64,000 bases of DNA from Sutcliffiella sp. FSL R7-0096 (GTDB taxonomy: Bacteria; Bacillota; Bacilli; Bacillales; Bacillaceae_I). The stretch's first letter is position 1, and each line of letters begins with the position of its first letter. The stretch spans positions 290,001 through 354,000 of the forward strand of contig NZ_CP152003.1 of assembly GCF_038595065.1 (NCBI RefSeq). Direction: 5' to 3'. The position numbers and the translations under genes were made by a program. Shown here one piece after another: positions 11,257-63,912 of the stretch. Below the pieces are notes generated by a model, which saw only the letters and a list, made by a program, of their open reading frames with translations, made no database searches and was not told the origin of the DNA.

Positions 11257-13461
<2,205 letters not shown>

Positions 13462-14950: not shown

Positions 14951-15064
14951 TTTAAGTATATAACTATTTTACTAGTTTATGCAATATGGGGACGGGTCTG
15001 ATGTGTACTTATTAGCCTTTTTCATTTTTAGGAGCCGGGGACGGGTTGATATTTGGTAAATGTC

Positions 15065-15153
15065 ACAATAACCCGATGAAAAGTTACAATGACCTTCCTA
15101 AAAGTTACAATCCACAGCAAAATAGTTACAATAACCCCTCGAAAAGTTACAAT
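15065..15153. repeat. 21-bp-pitch array, core (G)TTACAAT
   Basis: ACAAT recurs at 15065, 15086, 15107, 15128 and 15149, exactly 21 bp apart. The core is AGTTACAAT from the second copy on, with unrelated bases in between. It lies between the divergent ycgT and 15267 genes. The rest of 14951-15240 shows no gene. Confidence 0.8.
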
Positions 15154-15266
15154 CAACCAAAATGTCGCGGCAATCAGCAGAAAAAATAAGCTAGTATAGT
15201 TGAAAAAACACCATTTATAAGCTACCGTTCAAAGTAGAGAGTATTTCCAGAATGGAGAGAGAGTAT

Positions 15267-46890: not shown

Positions 46891-47030
46891 GGTTTCCTGA
46901 TATAATCCAGGATTTCCTGATATATGTTGATTTTTCCGGATATAACTCAATTTTTCCGGATATCTCTCAAAATTTCCTGATATAACTCATTTTTTCCTGA
47001 TATATCCTTCGGTTTTCCCGATATCTTTAT
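46891..47030. repeat. 20-bp-pitch array, core TTTCCTGATATA
   Basis: GATAT recurs at 46899, 46919, 46939, 46959, 46979, 46999 and 47020, each inside TTTCCTGATAT, TTCCGGATAT or TTCCCGATAT, with variable bases between. Seven units at 20, 20, 20, 20, 20 and 21 bp. Between the chemoreceptor terminator and the next ECF sigma promoter. Confidence 0.85.
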
Positions 47031-47132
47031 TTTTGCAAAGGTATTTTAAGTGTCCCCCGCACTATTCCCGCCGCTTTGCTCCAATATCACCCCACTTTTA
47101 CCCCACCTCAGCAAAATTTTACTAGATTGCTT

Positions 47133-49199: not shown

Positions 49200-50240
49200 A
49201 TGGTGGAAAGTCAGAATATTAAGTCTCGTAAAGAGAGAATTGAGACACAAAAAAGGGCAAGCAAAATGAAGAGAAATAGAAAAATGGTTAGTTATGTCCT
49301 AGCTGGAACGCTTGCAGCTAGTGCATATATCACGGTCAATATAAAAAGCGGTGGAGTGTTGGCAAATGCCCAAGTTTATCAAGTAAAGCCAGGTGATACC
49401 CTATATTCACTAGCTCAAAAACACGGCTTGTCCGTCAATGAATTAAAGGCGCTTAATGGTCTAAAGTCTGATGTTATCAAAGTGGGGCAAACATTGAAGG
49501 TTAGTGAGGCTGGTTCGAAAGATAGGGAAACGCAAAGAGTCGTTCATCATACGGTTACCAAAGGCGATACTTTATTCTCAATCTCCCAGAAGTACGGAAC
49601 AACCGTCTCAGCAATTAAACAACTAAATGCTTTAAAGAGTGATGTCATCAAAGTAGGAAAAACGCTTACAGTCAGCAACGGCCAAACGGCTGCTGTTTAT
49701 AAGGTAAAGTCAGGAGATACATTGTTTAGCATTGGTAAAAGGTTTAGTGTTCCAGTGGGGTTGATCCAGAAGGAAAATAACCTCACAACAGACATTATTT
49801 TTGTTGGTCAGCAGTTGAGCATCCCGACTACTAAAAGCCTCCCAGTAAAAGAAAATAAACAGGAAACAGTAACAAAGGCATATTACACGGTTGCGCCAGG
49901 AGAAACATTATGGGGAATAGCCAACAAGTTCAATCTATCTGCTTACAAATTGAAAAAGGATAACAACCTCTCCTCTGATCATGTATTGATAGGCCAAGAA
50001 CTTAAGATCCAAACGGACGGGTTAATAAAAGCCAATGCCGTCATAACCGGAGTGGTCGATCGTAATTCAGTGGAGTTTATAATTGAAGGTGAAAAAGAAC
50101 CACTTGTCTTACGTGTGGCATATGGCACAGCAGGGAATTATGATCTCATCGCTGGGGCAGAGCTAATGATCATTTATAAAAATGGGGTTAGCCCCGTGTT
50201 GGTTGACCTTGTGTTTGCTAATGAGGGGTTTGGTTACTGA
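49200..50240 (+). CDS. Four-LysM exported protein
   Basis: 346 residues. A basic N-terminus and hydrophobic segment (residues 30-46, signal or anchor) are followed by four LysM domains at about 59-101, 116-158, 166-208 and 228-270, each with GDTL or GETL and a terminal VGQ.L or IGQ.L block. A C-terminal unknown domain (275-346) has ANAVITGVVDRNSVEF. LysM binds peptidoglycan or spore coat glycan. No hydrolase domain is present. AAGGGGGATT precedes ATG 49200. A shorter start at residue 23 is possible. Confidence 0.88.
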   Translation: MVESQNIKSRKERIETQKRASKMKRNRKMVSYVLAGTLAASAYITVNIKSGGVLANAQVYQVKPGDTLYSLAQKHGLSVNELKALNGLKSDVIKVGQTLKVSEAGSKDRETQRVVHHTVTKGDTLFSISQKYGTTVSAIKQLNALKSDVIKVGKTLTVSNGQTAAVYKVKSGDTLFSIGKRFSVPVGLIQKENNLTTDIIFVGQQLSIPTTKSLPVKENKQETVTKAYYTVAPGETLWGIANKFNLSAYKLKKDNNLSSDHVLIGQELKIQTDGLIKANAVITGVVDRNSVEFIIEGEKEPLVLRVAYGTAGNYDLIAGAELMIIYKNGVSPVLVDLVFANEGFGY

Positions 50241-50252
50241 TAATAAGGAAGG

Positions 50253-50282
50253 GGATCACTTTACTTTGAGTGGTCCTTTTTT
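50253..50282 (+). terminator. Terminator of the LysM gene
   Basis: GGATCACT (50253-50260) pairs perfectly with AGTGGTCC (allowing one G-T) at 50269-50276, followed by T8. Confidence 0.9.
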
Positions 50283-50350
50283 TTGCAGAAATCATGAAAA
50301 AAAGCCAATTTTAAAAGGAAAATGCTACTAATTAGTGTTAGGTAAATGGG

Positions 50351-50560
50351 CTTCGGACACAAATCTTCTTTCTTCGGACAAGAAATGCGAGAAATGCGTG
50401 AGGTTCGGACATATTACTTAGGAGTTCGGACAACTTTTGCTGGTCGTTCGGACACCCAAAAAATTCGTTCGGACAAGAACGGGGAAACTTTGGACAAGTT
50501 CACGATAACTTTGGACAACTTTTAAAAAACTTCGGACTACTTCCCGAAAACTTTGGACAT
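50351..50560. repeat. 21-bp-pitch array, core TTCGGACAA (ten units)
   Basis: GGAC occurs at 50355, 50376, 50407, 50428, 50450, 50471, 50492, 50513, 50534 and 50555. Spacings are 21, 31, 21, 22, 21, 21, 21, 21 and 21. The first six units are TTCGGACA; the later ones mostly TTTGGACA. Spacer sequence is not conserved. The same core, reversed, forms the array at 63703. The interval 50561-50719 shows no further structure. Confidence 0.92.
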
Positions 50561-50719: not shown

Positions 50720-51361
50720 ATGTTCAAAAACAAACCAGCCTTATATATTTCTGTATCACTGATTGCCATCGCAATGATGATGTCCTTTCCCTTTAAACTT
50801 AGCGCACCATACGGACCTGAACGAGTTTCCATATTGGCGATACCTACTAGGACAGTGGAAGGACCGGTGTATCTGGGAATGATCATTGTATCCATTCTAT
50901 TGTTAGGATTAGTCTTCTTGGTGCTGGCTTTGAAAAAATATCGTGCACGCGCTGTCCTTATTGCCATTCTTCTATTTGTGTTTGGTCCGTTAAAGATTGC
51001 AGAGGCATACCAGGATACCTTTGCTACAGGCCTCGATGCAATTTCGTATGACCGGGACAGGAGTACCTGCTCCTATGAGAAGAAGAATGACATAACCATG
51101 ACAGCACATTGCGAATTATATCTTCAAAACCATAGTAAGGAGGATGTGACATTAATGCTCACTTTTTATGAAGAAGAGTATGCAATAGGGTCACACTATA
51201 TGAACGGTGCAGGTCCATTCGAAGTAACCGTCCTAAAACAGAACCAGAATCCTATAATTGTGAAGCGAGAGCTGAAACTAGAAAAGGAGCAGCCTTTTTC
51301 AGGATCTGATAGTCATTTCAACGTCATTGTGGAAGCCAAAGGAAAGAAACGAATACTTTAG
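50720..51361 (+). CDS. Hypothetical membrane protein with exported domain
   Basis: Not recognised. 213 residues: three helices (residues 8-26, 50-73, 77-95) and a soluble C-terminal domain of about 110 residues with two Cys (STCSYEK and AHCELYL) and a beta-rich look (EDVTLMLTFYEEEY). AAAGAAAGCAGG upstream of the ATG. The stop overlaps the first base of the palindromic repeat cluster. Confidence 0.72.
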   Translation: MFKNKPALYISVSLIAIAMMMSFPFKLSAPYGPERVSILAIPTRTVEGPVYLGMIIVSILLLGLVFLVLALKKYRARAVLIAILLFVFGPLKIAEAYQDTFATGLDAISYDRDRSTCSYEKKNDITMTAHCELYLQNHSKEDVTLMLTFYEEEYAIGSHYMNGAGPFEVTVLKQNQNPIIVKRELKLEKEQPFSGSDSHFNVIVEAKGKKRIL

Positions 51362-59725: not shown

Positions 59726-59925
59726 AATCCCTTCACAATAACGCTTAATTCCTTCGTTAACTTGTTCAATTCCCTCACAACGACTGCCATTCCTATAGAT
59801 TTGGTGTCATGGAGGAATTTCAAAAAATTAATCCCTTCACAAGAGAGAGAAATCCCTTCATAAGTGGAAAGAATTCCGTCATATCTCCTCTTAATCCCAT
59901 CATAACGCAAAAAAATCCCTTCACA
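59726..59925. repeat. 21-bp-pitch array, core AATCCCTTCACAA
   Basis: AATCCC or AATTCC blocks start at 59726, 59747, 59768, about 59788, 59830, 59851, 59872, 59893 and 59914. Spacings are 21, 21, 20, 42, 21, 21, 21 and 21; the unit at about 59809 is eroded. Lies between the divergent methionine operon and cydDC. Other bases of 59541-60000 show no gene. Confidence 0.85.
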
Positions 59926-60042
59926 TGAAAAGGAGGGCCCAATTGTAGCTTGAAAAATCCGTTACTTTAATAACGGAAGAGGGAAAACATAAATATGTCA
60001 TAAAATGGTCAATCCCAAAAGAAGAAATTCAAACGGGCATGT

Positions 60043-60134: not shown

Positions 60135-61868
60135 ATGACTGATTTAAAAACGATCGCAAAATCACATAGAGGCACAAGAATGACGCTAATCCTAATCGCC
60201 ATCCTGACAGGGGCGACGGTCATCGGGCAGGCGTATTTCTTTGTCACCATCGTCGATCGCGTGTTCCTAAGGGGCCACACGTTCCAAGAGATCCTCCCAT
60301 TCCTTGGGGGGCTTCTTGCGGTATTGGCTGCAAGAGCGGCATTGGCCTATTGGAGCGGTCTCACCGGCGTGAAGCTTGCTGCCAAAGTAAAACGCGATTT
60401 CCGGATTGCCTTGCTCCGTAAATTTTCTAATAGCCCGGTTCAAGCTTCCCTAAAAGGTCAATCTGGCCAAAAGGTGAGCGTCATGATGGATGCGGTGGAT
60501 GAAATTGATCCGTATTTCAGCAGGTATGTGCCACAGGTCATCCAATCGAGCATCATCCCGATCATGATCTTGATTGCTGCATTCAGCCAGCATGTAAATA
60601 CAGGGTTGATCATCTTGGTCACAGCACCGTTCATTCCGATTTTCATGATTGTCGTAGGCTTGAAAACGAAGAAGAAATCAGAAGAGCAGATGGATAAACT
60701 GAACGCATTTTCCGGAACGTTCCTTGATACCTTGCAGGGGCTGACGACGTTGAAGCTGTTCGGTCGCTCTGCCAAGCAACAAGAAACAATTGAAAGCAGT
60801 AGCTTAAGCTTCCGTGATGCGACGATGGAAGTGTTGAGAATCGCATTTCTATCTTCCTTGATGCTTGAGTTCATTTCGATGCTTGCCATCGGATTGATCG
60901 CGCTTGAGGTAGGATTACAGCTTGTTGTTTTTGAAAATGTGACGTTCTTTACTGCTTTTTTCGTATTGGTATTGGCACCTGAGTTCTACCTTTACCTGAA
61001 GGAGCTTGGAAGCGCCTTTCATACAGGGCGCGGAAGCATGGGAGCAGCGAAAAAAGTGACAGATGAGCTCGCAGAAGAGGAGGCACCTATGGAATGGGGA
61101 GACGAATCCCTAACAACAGAGGACGGTCCGCCTTCTATCCAATTGAAAAACCTGGGCTTCCGTTATGGGGAACAAGGCTTTGCCATAAATAATTTATCAG
61201 TGGATATTCCGCCCTATACGCAGCTTGCCTTGATTGGTCGAAGTGGTGCGGGAAAATCAACATTGCTCAACCTGATGGCAGGGTTGATCCGCCCGACAGA
61301 AGGCGAAGTGCTGGTGGATGGAAAACCATTATTTGAATATGAGGAAAAAGGATGGTTTGACCGTGTGAGCTATATCTCGCAGAATCCTTATCTTTTTTCC
61401 GGAACAATAGCAGAGAACATCGCTATCGGTGGAAAAGCGGAAGCGACACAAGCGGAAATAAAAGCCGCTGCGGAGAAAGCGGGAATCCTGACGTTAATAG
61501 AATCTTTACCTGAAGGCTTCCAAACGAGGATCGGAGAAGCGGGAAGAGGATTATCCGGAGGGGAGAAGCAGCGATTAGCGTTGGCACGGGCCTTTTTGAA
61601 AAAGCCGTCGGTTATCCTGTTCGATGAACCAACAACAGGACTCGATCTGCAGACAGAGCGGATATTGCAAGCTTCCATGAAGGAACTGGCCAAAACGTCG
61701 ACTGTCATTACCGTTGCACACAGACTGCATACGATCAAAAAAGCGGACTCCATTTTACTGCTCGAATCAGGTGAATTAATCGCCCGAGGAAAACATGAAG
61801 AGCTGGTCGAAGCAGTACCGGCTTACCGTGAAATGGTGTCTGCCCAGCAAGGAGGGAGCGCAGGATGA
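60135..61868 (+). CDS. cydD: Thiol reductant ABC exporter, first subunit (CydD type)
   Basis: Half-transporter with fused membrane and ATPase parts, needed for cytochrome bd assembly and cysteine/glutathione-type thiol export. 577 residues. Six helices occupy residues about 15-310. The ATPase has Walker A GRSGAGKS (near 372-379), signature LSGGEKQR (near 477) and Walker B VILFDEPTTGLD. AGAGGGG precedes the ATG. It overlaps its partner by 4 nt. B. subtilis names the first gene cydC and E. coli cydD; the symbol follows the protein-family convention. cydAB is not in this window. Confidence 0.92.
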   Translation: MTDLKTIAKSHRGTRMTLILIAILTGATVIGQAYFFVTIVDRVFLRGHTFQEILPFLGGLLAVLAARAALAYWSGLTGVKLAAKVKRDFRIALLRKFSNSPVQASLKGQSGQKVSVMMDAVDEIDPYFSRYVPQVIQSSIIPIMILIAAFSQHVNTGLIILVTAPFIPIFMIVVGLKTKKKSEEQMDKLNAFSGTFLDTLQGLTTLKLFGRSAKQQETIESSSLSFRDATMEVLRIAFLSSLMLEFISMLAIGLIALEVGLQLVVFENVTFFTAFFVLVLAPEFYLYLKELGSAFHTGRGSMGAAKKVTDELAEEEAPMEWGDESLTTEDGPPSIQLKNLGFRYGEQGFAINNLSVDIPPYTQLALIGRSGAGKSTLLNLMAGLIRPTEGEVLVDGKPLFEYEEKGWFDRVSYISQNPYLFSGTIAENIAIGGKAEATQAEIKAAAEKAGILTLIESLPEGFQTRIGEAGRGLSGGEKQRLALARAFLKKPSVILFDEPTTGLDLQTERILQASMKELAKTSTVITVAHRLHTIKKADSILLLESGELIARGKHEELVEAVPAYREMVSAQQGGSAG

Positions 61869-63589
61869 GAGAATTAGCACATGTTGTGAAACTGGTCATG
61901 TTGGAAAAGAAAGACATACTCCTGTCCATTTTGCTCGGATTCTCTGCAGGGATTACGGCTGTGGGGCTGTTTGCCTCTAGTGGTTACCTCATTTCCAAGG
62001 CGGCACTTGCTCCACCGATCTATACGTTGACGGTGATGATTGCGGTATTGAAGCTTTTCGGTTTTGCGAGGGCATTCAGCCGCTACGGCGAGAGACTATA
62101 CTCGCATAGGGCGACCTTTACAATATTAAGTAATCTACGCGTTTCTTTTTATAAAAAAATAGAGCCCCTTGCGCCACAGATTTTTCAGAAGTATCGCAGC
62201 GGCGATTTGCTTGCACGGATTGTGGGGGACGTGGAGAGCTTGCAGAATTTCTTTCTTCGCGTATTTTATCCACCGATTGTGCTAGTGCTCATCTTTTTAA
62301 GTACGATATTTTTCATTTCGTTTTTCTCTGTGTATTTAGCAGTAGTGATGTTGATCGGACTGATTTTGACAGGCTTTGTGGTACCGGCTATCTTTGCGGT
62401 AGGACAACGTCGATTGCAAAATCGTGTCAGGGAAGAGCGAGGGTCGCTTTCTACAGAGGTGACGGAGCTACTTTACGGATTCCGGGATTTGAAAATCTAT
62501 CAGCAACTGGAAGGTAAGGAAAAGTTGCTTGCCGATGCTGCAGGTTCTTATGTGGCGGAGCAAGAGCGAGAAGGGAAACAGGCGATGTTCAATCAATCGG
62601 TGAACACGTTTATCACGTTGCTTGTTTCATGGACCTTGCTTGCACTTGGAGCCTATCTGACGGTGGAAGGACAGTTTGATGGGCTGTTCCTTGCGATGCT
62701 TGTGATGATCTCCTTGACTGTATTTGAAAATGCCGCGCCGATGGCGGTTTTCCCTAATCATTATGAAGATAGCAGACGGGCTGCAGCAAGGCTGAATGAT
62801 GTGGTGAGTGTGGAATCGCCAGCCAGGGACGCAACTTTGGGATCAAAGATGGACTTACCAGCAAATAAGGCGTTTTCCTTCCAAATGAGAGATGTTAACT
62901 TCCGTTTTCCGGGAGAATCCCGCCTGACATTGGACGGGGTGAGTATCAACTTGCCTGAAGGATCCAAAACGGCAATCGTCGGTCCAAGCGGATCCGGTAA
63001 ATCTACGTTATTACAGCTGCTGTTGAAAATCTATGACGCGGAGAAAGGGATTGTTTCACTGGATGAGTGGGATTATGCTGCAGTGGAGCAGGAGGACCTG
63101 TGGAGCAAAGCGAATGTCGTCATGCAGGAAAACCACTTTTTCTACGGCACGATCAGGGAGAATCTAGCTCTTGCCAAGGATGGACTGGGCGATGAGGAGA
63201 TGCTGGAGGCGTTGGGCGCAGTGAAGCTTGACGGGTTCTCTTTGGATGATGAGGTGTTGGAAAAAGGGGAGAATCTTTCCGGTGGAGAGAAACAACGCCT
63301 AGCGATAGCACGTTCGTTGCTGAAGGCAGAACGCTTGTGGTTGCTGGATGAGCCGACCTCCTCCGTGGATGCTGTGACAGAAGCGACGATTTTGGAGGAG
63401 CTTTTTGAAAAAGCGGCAGATGATACATTGGTGCTCGTAAGTCATCGATTGACTGGCCTGGAGAAGATGGATCGGATCATTGTCATGGAGAATGGCCGTG
63501 TTGTGGAGGCAGGCACGTTTGATGAATTGATGAAGGCGCAAGGTTATTTTTATGAGATGAAAGAGATTGAGAAGAGTGTGTTTATGTAA
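61865..63589 (+). CDS. cydC: Thiol reductant ABC exporter, second subunit (CydC type)
   Basis: 574-residue partner half-transporter. Six helices (about 18-305, including LYSHRATFTILSNLRVSFY in the first intracellular loop). The ATPase has Walker A GPSGSGKS (near 373-380), signature LSGGEKQR (near 472) and Walker B LWLLDEPTSSVD. ATGA overlap with cydD indicates a heterodimer. Last gene of the operon; a hairpin follows. Confidence 0.92.
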   Translation: MRELAHVVKLVMLEKKDILLSILLGFSAGITAVGLFASSGYLISKAALAPPIYTLTVMIAVLKLFGFARAFSRYGERLYSHRATFTILSNLRVSFYKKIEPLAPQIFQKYRSGDLLARIVGDVESLQNFFLRVFYPPIVLVLIFLSTIFFISFFSVYLAVVMLIGLILTGFVVPAIFAVGQRRLQNRVREERGSLSTEVTELLYGFRDLKIYQQLEGKEKLLADAAGSYVAEQEREGKQAMFNQSVNTFITLLVSWTLLALGAYLTVEGQFDGLFLAMLVMISLTVFENAAPMAVFPNHYEDSRRAAARLNDVVSVESPARDATLGSKMDLPANKAFSFQMRDVNFRFPGESRLTLDGVSINLPEGSKTAIVGPSGSGKSTLLQLLLKIYDAEKGIVSLDEWDYAAVEQEDLWSKANVVMQENHFFYGTIRENLALAKDGLGDEEMLEALGAVKLDGFSLDDEVLEKGENLSGGEKQRLAIARSLLKAERLWLLDEPTSSVDAVTEATILEELFEKAADDTLVLVSHRLTGLEKMDRIIVMENGRVVEAGTFDELMKAQGYFYEMKEIEKSVFM

Positions 63590-63702: not shown

Positions 63703-63912
63703 ATGTCCGAAGTTTTTCTGATCTTGTCCGAAGATTTGGCGGAGTTGTCCGAAGATTCGAGAAAGTTGTCCAAAGTTTTGGGATTCTTGTCCGAACCAAA
63801 TTTTCAATTGTCCAAACGCCGCCCACTCTTGTCCGAACAAGCTATGGCAAATGTCCGAACCCCCATCCCAAAAGCATATTAAGTGTACGAACCCATGAAA
63901 TAGTTGTCCGAA
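63703..63912. repeat. 21-bp-pitch array, core TTGTCCGAA (reverse of the 50.4-kb array)
   Basis: GTCC occurs at 63705, 63726, 63747, 63768, 63789, 63810, 63831, 63853 and 63906, with a mutated unit (GTACG) at 63884. Spacings are 21 six times, then 22, 31 and 22. Core TTGTCCGAA or TTGTCCAAA. It is the reverse complement of the 50351 core. The last 90 bases of the window show no gene. Confidence 0.92.

Follow-up and report, generated by a model that had tools for sequence, protein, structure and literature searches.

Two arrays of ten short units, lying on opposite strands of one stretch of chromosome, raise the question of whether their common word is a signal that is read and, if so, by what. 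The window (the whole stretch of DNA that was analysed, 64,000 nucleotides) spans positions 290001-354000 of the single 4.9-Mb contig of a Sutcliffiella genome, G000 in the following. An initial annotation had located both ten-unit arrays correctly and had read them as a recognised signal and not as a recent duplication. The features of the two loci are:

49200..50240, plus strand: gene of a LysM-domain protein, upstream neighbour of array 1
about 50252-50287: terminator-like hairpin and T-run between the LysM gene and array 1, read by eye
50320..50351, plus strand: leader 5' of unit 1 of array 1, starting with AAATGC, taken from the alignment
50352..50559, plus strand: array 1, ten TTYGGACA-type units with steps of 21-31-21-22-21-21-21-21-21
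50720..51361, plus strand: next gene downstream of array 1; its 213-aa product has no Pfam match
61865..63589, plus strand: ABC transporter with membrane and ATPase domains, neighbour of array 2
63704..63912, minus strand: array 2, ten TTYGGACA-type units, one of them TTCGTACA; steps in the sense of the array 21-32-22-21-21-21-21-21-21

By our own ORF calls array 2 lies 3' of the ABC transporter gene and between convergent genes. The core of both arrays had been proposed to be the 9-mer TTCGGACAA. Exact copies of it were found in only 3/10 units of array 1 and 5/10 units of array 2, with one lone copy at 12005, and the word that is conserved in both arrays is TTYGGACA. These nine copies exceed what 100 dinucleotide shuffles of the window contain (0.64 on average and never more than 3). 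The step outline claimed for array 1 was reproduced, while that of array 2 had to be corrected from 22-31-22-21 to 21-32-22-21. When aligned by position, the spacers of the two arrays proved unrelated, so that the arrays are not inverted duplicates of each other.

Genome-wide the strict two-unit pattern TTYGGACA-N13-TTYGGACA gave 126 matches in G000 versus 0 for a reversed control pattern. Because of this difference and the excess of the 9-mer over shuffles we concluded that the arrays are not due to chance. The first set of loci covered 117/126 strict matches and five loci were added afterwards. Arrays were called by chaining at least two units in loci with strict pairs, a procedure that may miss arrays devoid of such a pair. 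On this basis further arrays with the same core do exist: G000 carries at least 29 arrays with a minimum of two units, and 22 of these have seven units or more. The arrays occur in either orientation; thus the opposite strands of arrays 1 and 2 are real, yet the special relation implied by the term 'inverted sister' is not.

Sixteen arrays have exactly ten units and follow one template of 21, 31/32, 21/22, 21/22 and then 21s. Step 1 was 21 in 16/16 arrays, step 2 was 31 in five and 32 in 11 arrays, steps 3 and 4 were 21 or 22, and steps 6-8 were 21 in 48/48 cases; steps 5 and 9 were each 21 in 15 arrays and 20 in one. Spacers of the ten-unit arrays share position-specific bases. G precedes U6 in 16/16 arrays, C precedes U7-U10 in 61/64 cases, T follows U10 in 16/16, and the spacer 3' of U5 tends to TTTGAAAATTTGG. 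A T-tract located ~20 bp before unit 1 and an A-tract located ~6 bp before it are loosely common to the 16 arrays, the T-tract being weak in array 1. Units within an array are not interchangeable. Because every unit position carries its own signature, the arrays are probably anciently diverged copies of one element in which the cores and the rhythm were held. The statement that they are no recent duplication therefore stands with the qualification that an ancient one is probable. Inspected by eye as possible MITE or transposon ends, the arrays had diverged spacers, no target duplication and weak AAATG/CATTT ends.

The 190 steps of the 22 longer arrays were 21 bp (149), 22 bp (16), 20 bp (2), 32 bp (17) and 31 bp (6); i.e. 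167/190 were of 20-22 bp and 23/190 of 31-32 bp. Two turns of B-DNA correspond to 21 bp and three turns to 31.5 bp. Both step classes are near whole turns, which points to a protein located on one face of the DNA duplex. Step coherence was 0.98 at 10.5 bp, but it stayed at 0.91-0.98 whichever period between 9 and 12.5 bp was assumed. As the value barely depends on this choice, it was dropped as a proof of phasing. The helical period is not fixed by the step lengths on their own, and the phasing argument thus rests on the existence of two step classes.

Neutral tandem duplication would likewise produce arrays by common ancestry, with a core that is conserved only by youth or chance. Orthologous arrays bear on this reading. 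A total of 25 comparisons was made with 22 arrays of G000 and their counterparts in G013, G002 or G008, three arrays being compared with two species. The anchored pair 4460837/L172, which has an insertion sequence (IS) inside, was omitted, the badly aligned pair 2005764/L182 with a core difference of 64% was kept, and deleted units were not counted. Core sites differed in 165/1714 cases (9.6%), spacer sites in 666/2746 (24.3%) and flank sites in 1736/6750 (25.7%), and core divergence was below spacer divergence in 24/25 comparisons. Fisher's test of core versus spacer gave p = 1e-36 for sites that are not independent. Core positions 3 and 6 held 95/165 core changes. Thus, we concluded that the core words are under purifying selection, and cores that are conserved between species while spacers drift agree with the recognised signal of the initial annotation. 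Arrays do gain and lose units, as neutral duplication would have it, and an array beside an IS in G047 reaches 37 units. On the other hand, cores alternate with spacers in one and the same copy, and yet the two diverge so differently; neutral duplication is already disfavoured and we regard it as improbable. In the G013 copy of array 1 eight units are left, two having been lost in register, and steps 1 and 2 are 18 and 30, off the template.

The preference of changes for positions 3 and 6 is also what coding heptad repeats would show. TTY GGN CAA would be read as Phe-Gly-Gln, 21 bp equal seven codons, and the variable core positions would be third codon positions with synonymous changes. Yet the 31/32-bp step breaks the reading frame inside all 16 ten-unit arrays, and stop codons are depleted to a similar degree in each of the six frames. 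Because of these two results a coding repeat was rejected, and we see next to no chance for it.

The position of the arrays with respect to genes was assessed with our own ORF calls. The 22 longer arrays are intergenic, 16 between tandem genes, five in convergent gaps and one in a divergent gap, which is doubtful because the nearest left ORF is 1.1 kb off. The baseline of 110 gaps of 200-900 bp comprised 71 tandem, 15 convergent and 24 divergent gaps. Divergent gaps thus are mildly avoided by the arrays (1/22 versus 24/110). Within tandem gaps, 11 arrays are sense and five antisense to the genes. This bias would fit a role at the RNA level, where transcribed arrays would act as a sponge, a small RNA or a 3'-end signal. 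In RNAalifold the sense strand showed weak core-to-core pairing of -11.5 kcal/mol; for the reverse strand no pairing was obtained. The 52-nt repeats of B. coagulans are reported to be transcribed, and an RNA-level role was considered for 52-nt repeats by Subirana and Messeguer (PMC8161180). The folding of single arrays, however, did not exceed that of shuffles, with a mean z of -0.58 in sense and +0.56 in antisense for 16 arrays, and the template is kept in antisense arrays. An Rfam search of four array loci gave no match at the arrays. Thus a function as RNA seems quite unlikely. The only match of that search was an unrelated SAM riboswitch (RF00162) at L037 1541-1645 in G000.

Origin and terminus (about 2.35 Mb) of G000 were taken from the GC skew of sampled stretches. 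In this genome 18/22 long arrays lie in the origin half (p = 0.004), but only 1/7 short ones; in G014, with an origin estimated from synteny, 10/19 long arrays do so. Because the origin bias of G000 is not matched in G014, anchoring of the chromosome is not claimed. The RacA ram, Noc and parS sites of Bacillus number some dozens per chromosome and are single palindromic sites. The arrays resemble them in the dozens of sites and, in G000, in the origin bias; they differ in not being single palindromes and in the missing bias of G014.

The distribution of the arrays among relatives was uneven. At least one strict pair is present in 12/15 relatives of the genus, with numbers from 1 to 96 compared with 126 in G000, and G000 and G013 have the most; G010 and G015 counted as array-free. 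At the site syntenic to array 1 the array is kept in G013, whereas G003, G004, G008, G012 and G001 have both flanking genes but lack an array. The upstream LysM gene is also kept in G014, G009, G007 and G002, there with a different downstream neighbour. Three of these (G014, G009, G007; L194, L196, L198) carry 3-4 copies of a AAACGTTTGT repeat, 54-58 bp apart, 3' of the LysM gene, and G002 has no array there. With 0 to 126 pairs per genome and five species devoid of array 1, a vital function hardly fits. This turnover is the main doubt about a binding scaffold: either any one array is of little consequence, or mobile-element biology accounts for the arrays in part.

In the order, 42/397 genomes match the two-unit pattern. 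About 15 genomes have a single match to the control, and lone matches outside the genus are weak for this reason. Clear matches outside the genus were seen in G040 (52) and G160 (65). Arrays of this kind exist in genus-specific versions elsewhere: Halobacillus locisalis has two eight-unit arrays, both with steps of 21-21-21-21-19-21-21 and with unrelated spacers. Metabacillus kandeliae and G040 have TTTGGACAGT arrays. An origin from phages or plasmids was discarded, as a blastn search with one array against both yielded no match. Three viral contigs matching the pattern consist of short, near-identical tandem copies and were set aside. A wider pattern scan of contigs returned 67 stretches, 11 of which were read as arrays; those from MAGs, cyanobacteria, Treponema and Planctomycetes may be unrelated repeats.

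The word itself changes with the position of the unit. In G014, where unit numbers were deduced from the order of pairs, TTCGGTCA is the usual form of the units that precede the last one, and the last unit is TTCGGACA, at many unlinked loci. At the ortholog of the G000 array at 424077 in G004, G012, G001, G008 and G013, TTYGGTCA prevails in units 7-9 or 6-9 and the last unit is TTCGGACA, whereas G000 has TTYGGACA in units 6-9. G013 has the TTCGGTCA form at one locus and TTYGGACA in its other listed arrays, which stem from a search for TTYGGACA only; the shift thus is not simply genome-wide. It is hard to see how drift alone could alter the same units at loci that are not linked. Judged from sequence comparison, a shift in the preference of a trans-acting reader could do so. 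Around the 424 kb locus of G000, in L212, L217 and relatives, a G+C-rich repeat (GCGCGCAGACGCCCGCGGGAGG...) is found near the array or in its place in several species.

A 1419-bp element interrupts arrays in G002. Its OrfA matches HTH_Tnp_1, and its OrfB has matches to rve and to the IS3-family transposase of NCBIfam (E 2.2e-85). A search of 16 genomes of the genus identified the IS in seven, in G001 weakly, and did not detect it in G000 or G013. Sites were examined for 25/33 matches; the eight left out were three pieces of G002 copies, a G009 end without a locus, three weak G001 matches and a weak one in G002. All 25 examined copies or ends in Sutcliffiella were located in or beside arrays. 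Twenty of them (G002, G004, G007, G009) had TTYGGNCA units on every readable flank; IS ends of G004 and G009 often coincide with contig ends, so that two ends may be one copy. Sixteen of the 20 are in forward and four in reverse orientation, all four reverse ones in G004. Of the forward copies, 10/11 left ends have the start of the closest core 23 bp ahead of them, and 10/11 right ends are followed by a core start at a distance of 2 bp. The two exceptions are one unit off, beside an altered core. The IS thus inserts at a fixed base of the unit with NNTT^YGGNCA as a target and a 4-bp duplication, which was visible in 5/6 copies with both flanks. In relatives, therefore, an IS recognises one exact base of the unit, and the rhythm is common to unlinked arrays; both fit the recognised signal proposed initially.

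The four IS copies of G014 (77-78% identical) reside in arrays of a second type, GTTSGTGCC, and all four show a 4-bp duplication (GTTC, ATTG, GTTG, GTTC). The G006 copy (90% identical) has the GTTSGTGCC type on its right side only. The idea that the ends of the IS mimic the core (TGGACA) was abandoned because the G014 copies, with the same end motif, sit in GTTSGTGCC arrays. G000 contains a 21-bp TTTTGGCACGAACTT array of this second core type at L034 2539-2643 (about 363540), the type used by the IS of G014 and G006.

Relatives of OrfB (E up to 1e-70) were found in 32/299 genomes of the order, 30 of which had a locus for inspection. These 30 loci, one per genome, include five from Sutcliffiella, and in six of them (L289, L293, L298, L300, L302, L308) one IS end was not located. 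An array was defined as at least four units with steps of 20-22, 31-32, 42-43 or 52 bp, flanking or spanning the element. It was present at the element in 19/30 loci, with 11/30 falling below four units, while control windows 600-800 bp away had an array in 1/30 (G047, with a very long array) and random 400-bp windows of G000 in 3/200. With at least three units the respective numbers were 22/30, 2/30 and 5/200. The cores at these IS relatives mostly differ by genome, e.g. ATATTATC, TCGCCAAT, GATTCGGC, GGCCGGAT and CTATGCGC. In G226 (L303) the IS3-family relative lies inside a 52-bp array, which by eye resembles a 52-nt family of B. coagulans given in PMC8161180. The long array of G047 (L309) is of the CCTATGCGC type, and its units follow one another without a break to one side of the IS3-family element.

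Such an association may mean that the arrays are landing or binding sites of IS3-family transposases or of a domesticated relative, that they spread with them, that the transposase is the reader and that the host gains little. IS relatives in arrays of 20-22- or 52-bp period in 19/30 genomes, mostly with genome-specific cores, would agree with this, as would the 25/25 examined Sutcliffiella copies or ends and the appearance of the arrays as diverged copies of one ancestral element. However, G000 and G013 have the most strict pairs and no detectable IS, and yet their cores diverge less than their spacers. Moreover, the examined G002 copies interrupt arrays. Finally, OrfB proteins that are 90% identical (G002, G006) are found at different array types, so that the IS seems to follow arrays and not to make them. 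We thus consider it rather unlikely that the arrays are made or maintained by the transposon.

Bacillus is known for non-coding tandem repeats of 20-21 and 52 nt with constant length and species-specific sequence (PMC8161180). Subirana and Messeguer noted in 2021 that 20-21 nt equal two helical turns; a protein polymerising on DNA or on transcribed RNA was suggested, and the 20-21-nt repeats were called enigmatic, with no function known (PMC8161180). Bacillus subtilis 168 is poor in repeats according to the same authors. The arrays are alike in length, in being non-coding, in the presence of several families per genome, in a short conserved signal and in species-specific sequence. These repeats are defined by at least four repeats with at least 60% of equal length +/-1, and 167/190 array steps are 20-22 bp; the frame-breaking step in 16/16 arrays and the absence of a frame-specific lack of stops mark the arrays as non-coding, and the short word TTYGGACA is shared by 29 arrays. 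On the other hand, the accessible part of that paper contains no fixed template of ten positions with a single three-turn step and no selection on core versus spacer (PMC8161180), and a term search of its main text found neither 'transpos' nor 'insertion sequence'. In the open-licence literature we found no report linking insertion sequences to 20-21-nt Bacillus arrays.

Dispersed intergenic REP elements are targets of IS, including the IS3-family members IS1397, ISKpn1 and ISPsy8 (Tobes and Pareja, PMC1525189). Like REP and BIME, the arrays are dispersed intergenic repeats and specific targets of an IS3-family IS, as seen with 25/25 examined copies or ends. Yet REPs are palindromes, whereas the arrays are direct repeats without a palindrome, with up to ten set sites, and fold no better than shuffles. 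CRISPR arrays have identical repeats and acquired spacers; the present arrays do not fit this type, since their spacers drift by substitution between orthologs and have position-specific bases in common. We conclude that the arrays are a variant of the Bacillus 20-21-nt repeats which, as an IS target, work like REP. Neither the fixed ten-position template nor the use of such arrays as targets by an IS3-family IS was found in print.

Several repeat families of like length and different sequence were seen in the window, i.e. GTTACAAT, TTTCCNGATAT (20 bp) and AATCCCTTCAT arrays. Positions 15062-15166 hold a 21-bp array of the GTTACAATNACC type with five clear units, the core of which recurs at 21 bp in two stretches of G013. 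A TTTCCNGATATA array with a 20-bp period and about seven units is located at 46893-47033. At 59830-59934 there is a AATCCCTTCATAA array of 21 bp with about five units and a core that recurs in three G013 stretches. Elsewhere in G000, L248 4243-4595 (about 4784300) is a tandem array with a 52-bp period in which a TCACGAAG-like word recurs at internal spacings of 21/31; by eye it resembles the 52-nt family that PMC8161180 lists for B. horikoshii. This array alone suggested that the 52-nt class might equal 21+31, which was discarded as not general among 18 published consensus repeats. In 17/18 of these consensus repeats a best inverted pair could be identified, at distances of 16-38 bp, 18 bp being the commonest.

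Taken together we favor the view, at about an even chance and on the grounds of sequence, that the arrays are a DNA scaffold for a putative oligomerising host DNA-binding protein, which the IS exploits. Sites of 8 bp in one orientation, about two and once three helical turns apart, would all be presented on one face of the DNA. A putative host protein would line up there and multimerise over about 20 helical turns of the intergenic region, usually 3' of a gene. The effect would likely be structural, i.e. a local nucleoprotein filament or the organisation of supercoils or the nucleoid, and not promoter control. In relatives an IS3-family IS has adopted the arrays as a target. A broader version, to which we would assign only a minor share of the likelihood, is a chromosome-structuring system of the whole order. 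One or several readers would lay protein on a two-turn ruler, the recognised word would drift by species and by position in the array (from TTYGGACA to TTCGGTCA before the last unit), and a branch of IS3-family insertion sequences would insert at the edge of the word, whatever it is. In such a system the IS probably would sense the assembled complex and not the bare sequence.

For the enigmatic repeats of Bacillus these results provide three handles, the first being the evidence that selection acts on a short word and not on the spacer. The fixed anatomy of the arrays predicts how binding should depend on spacing. The IS, marking one base of the unit, is a natural probe that makes recognition testable by a transposition assay, and array-directed IS could serve as safe-harbour delivery tools in these bacteria.
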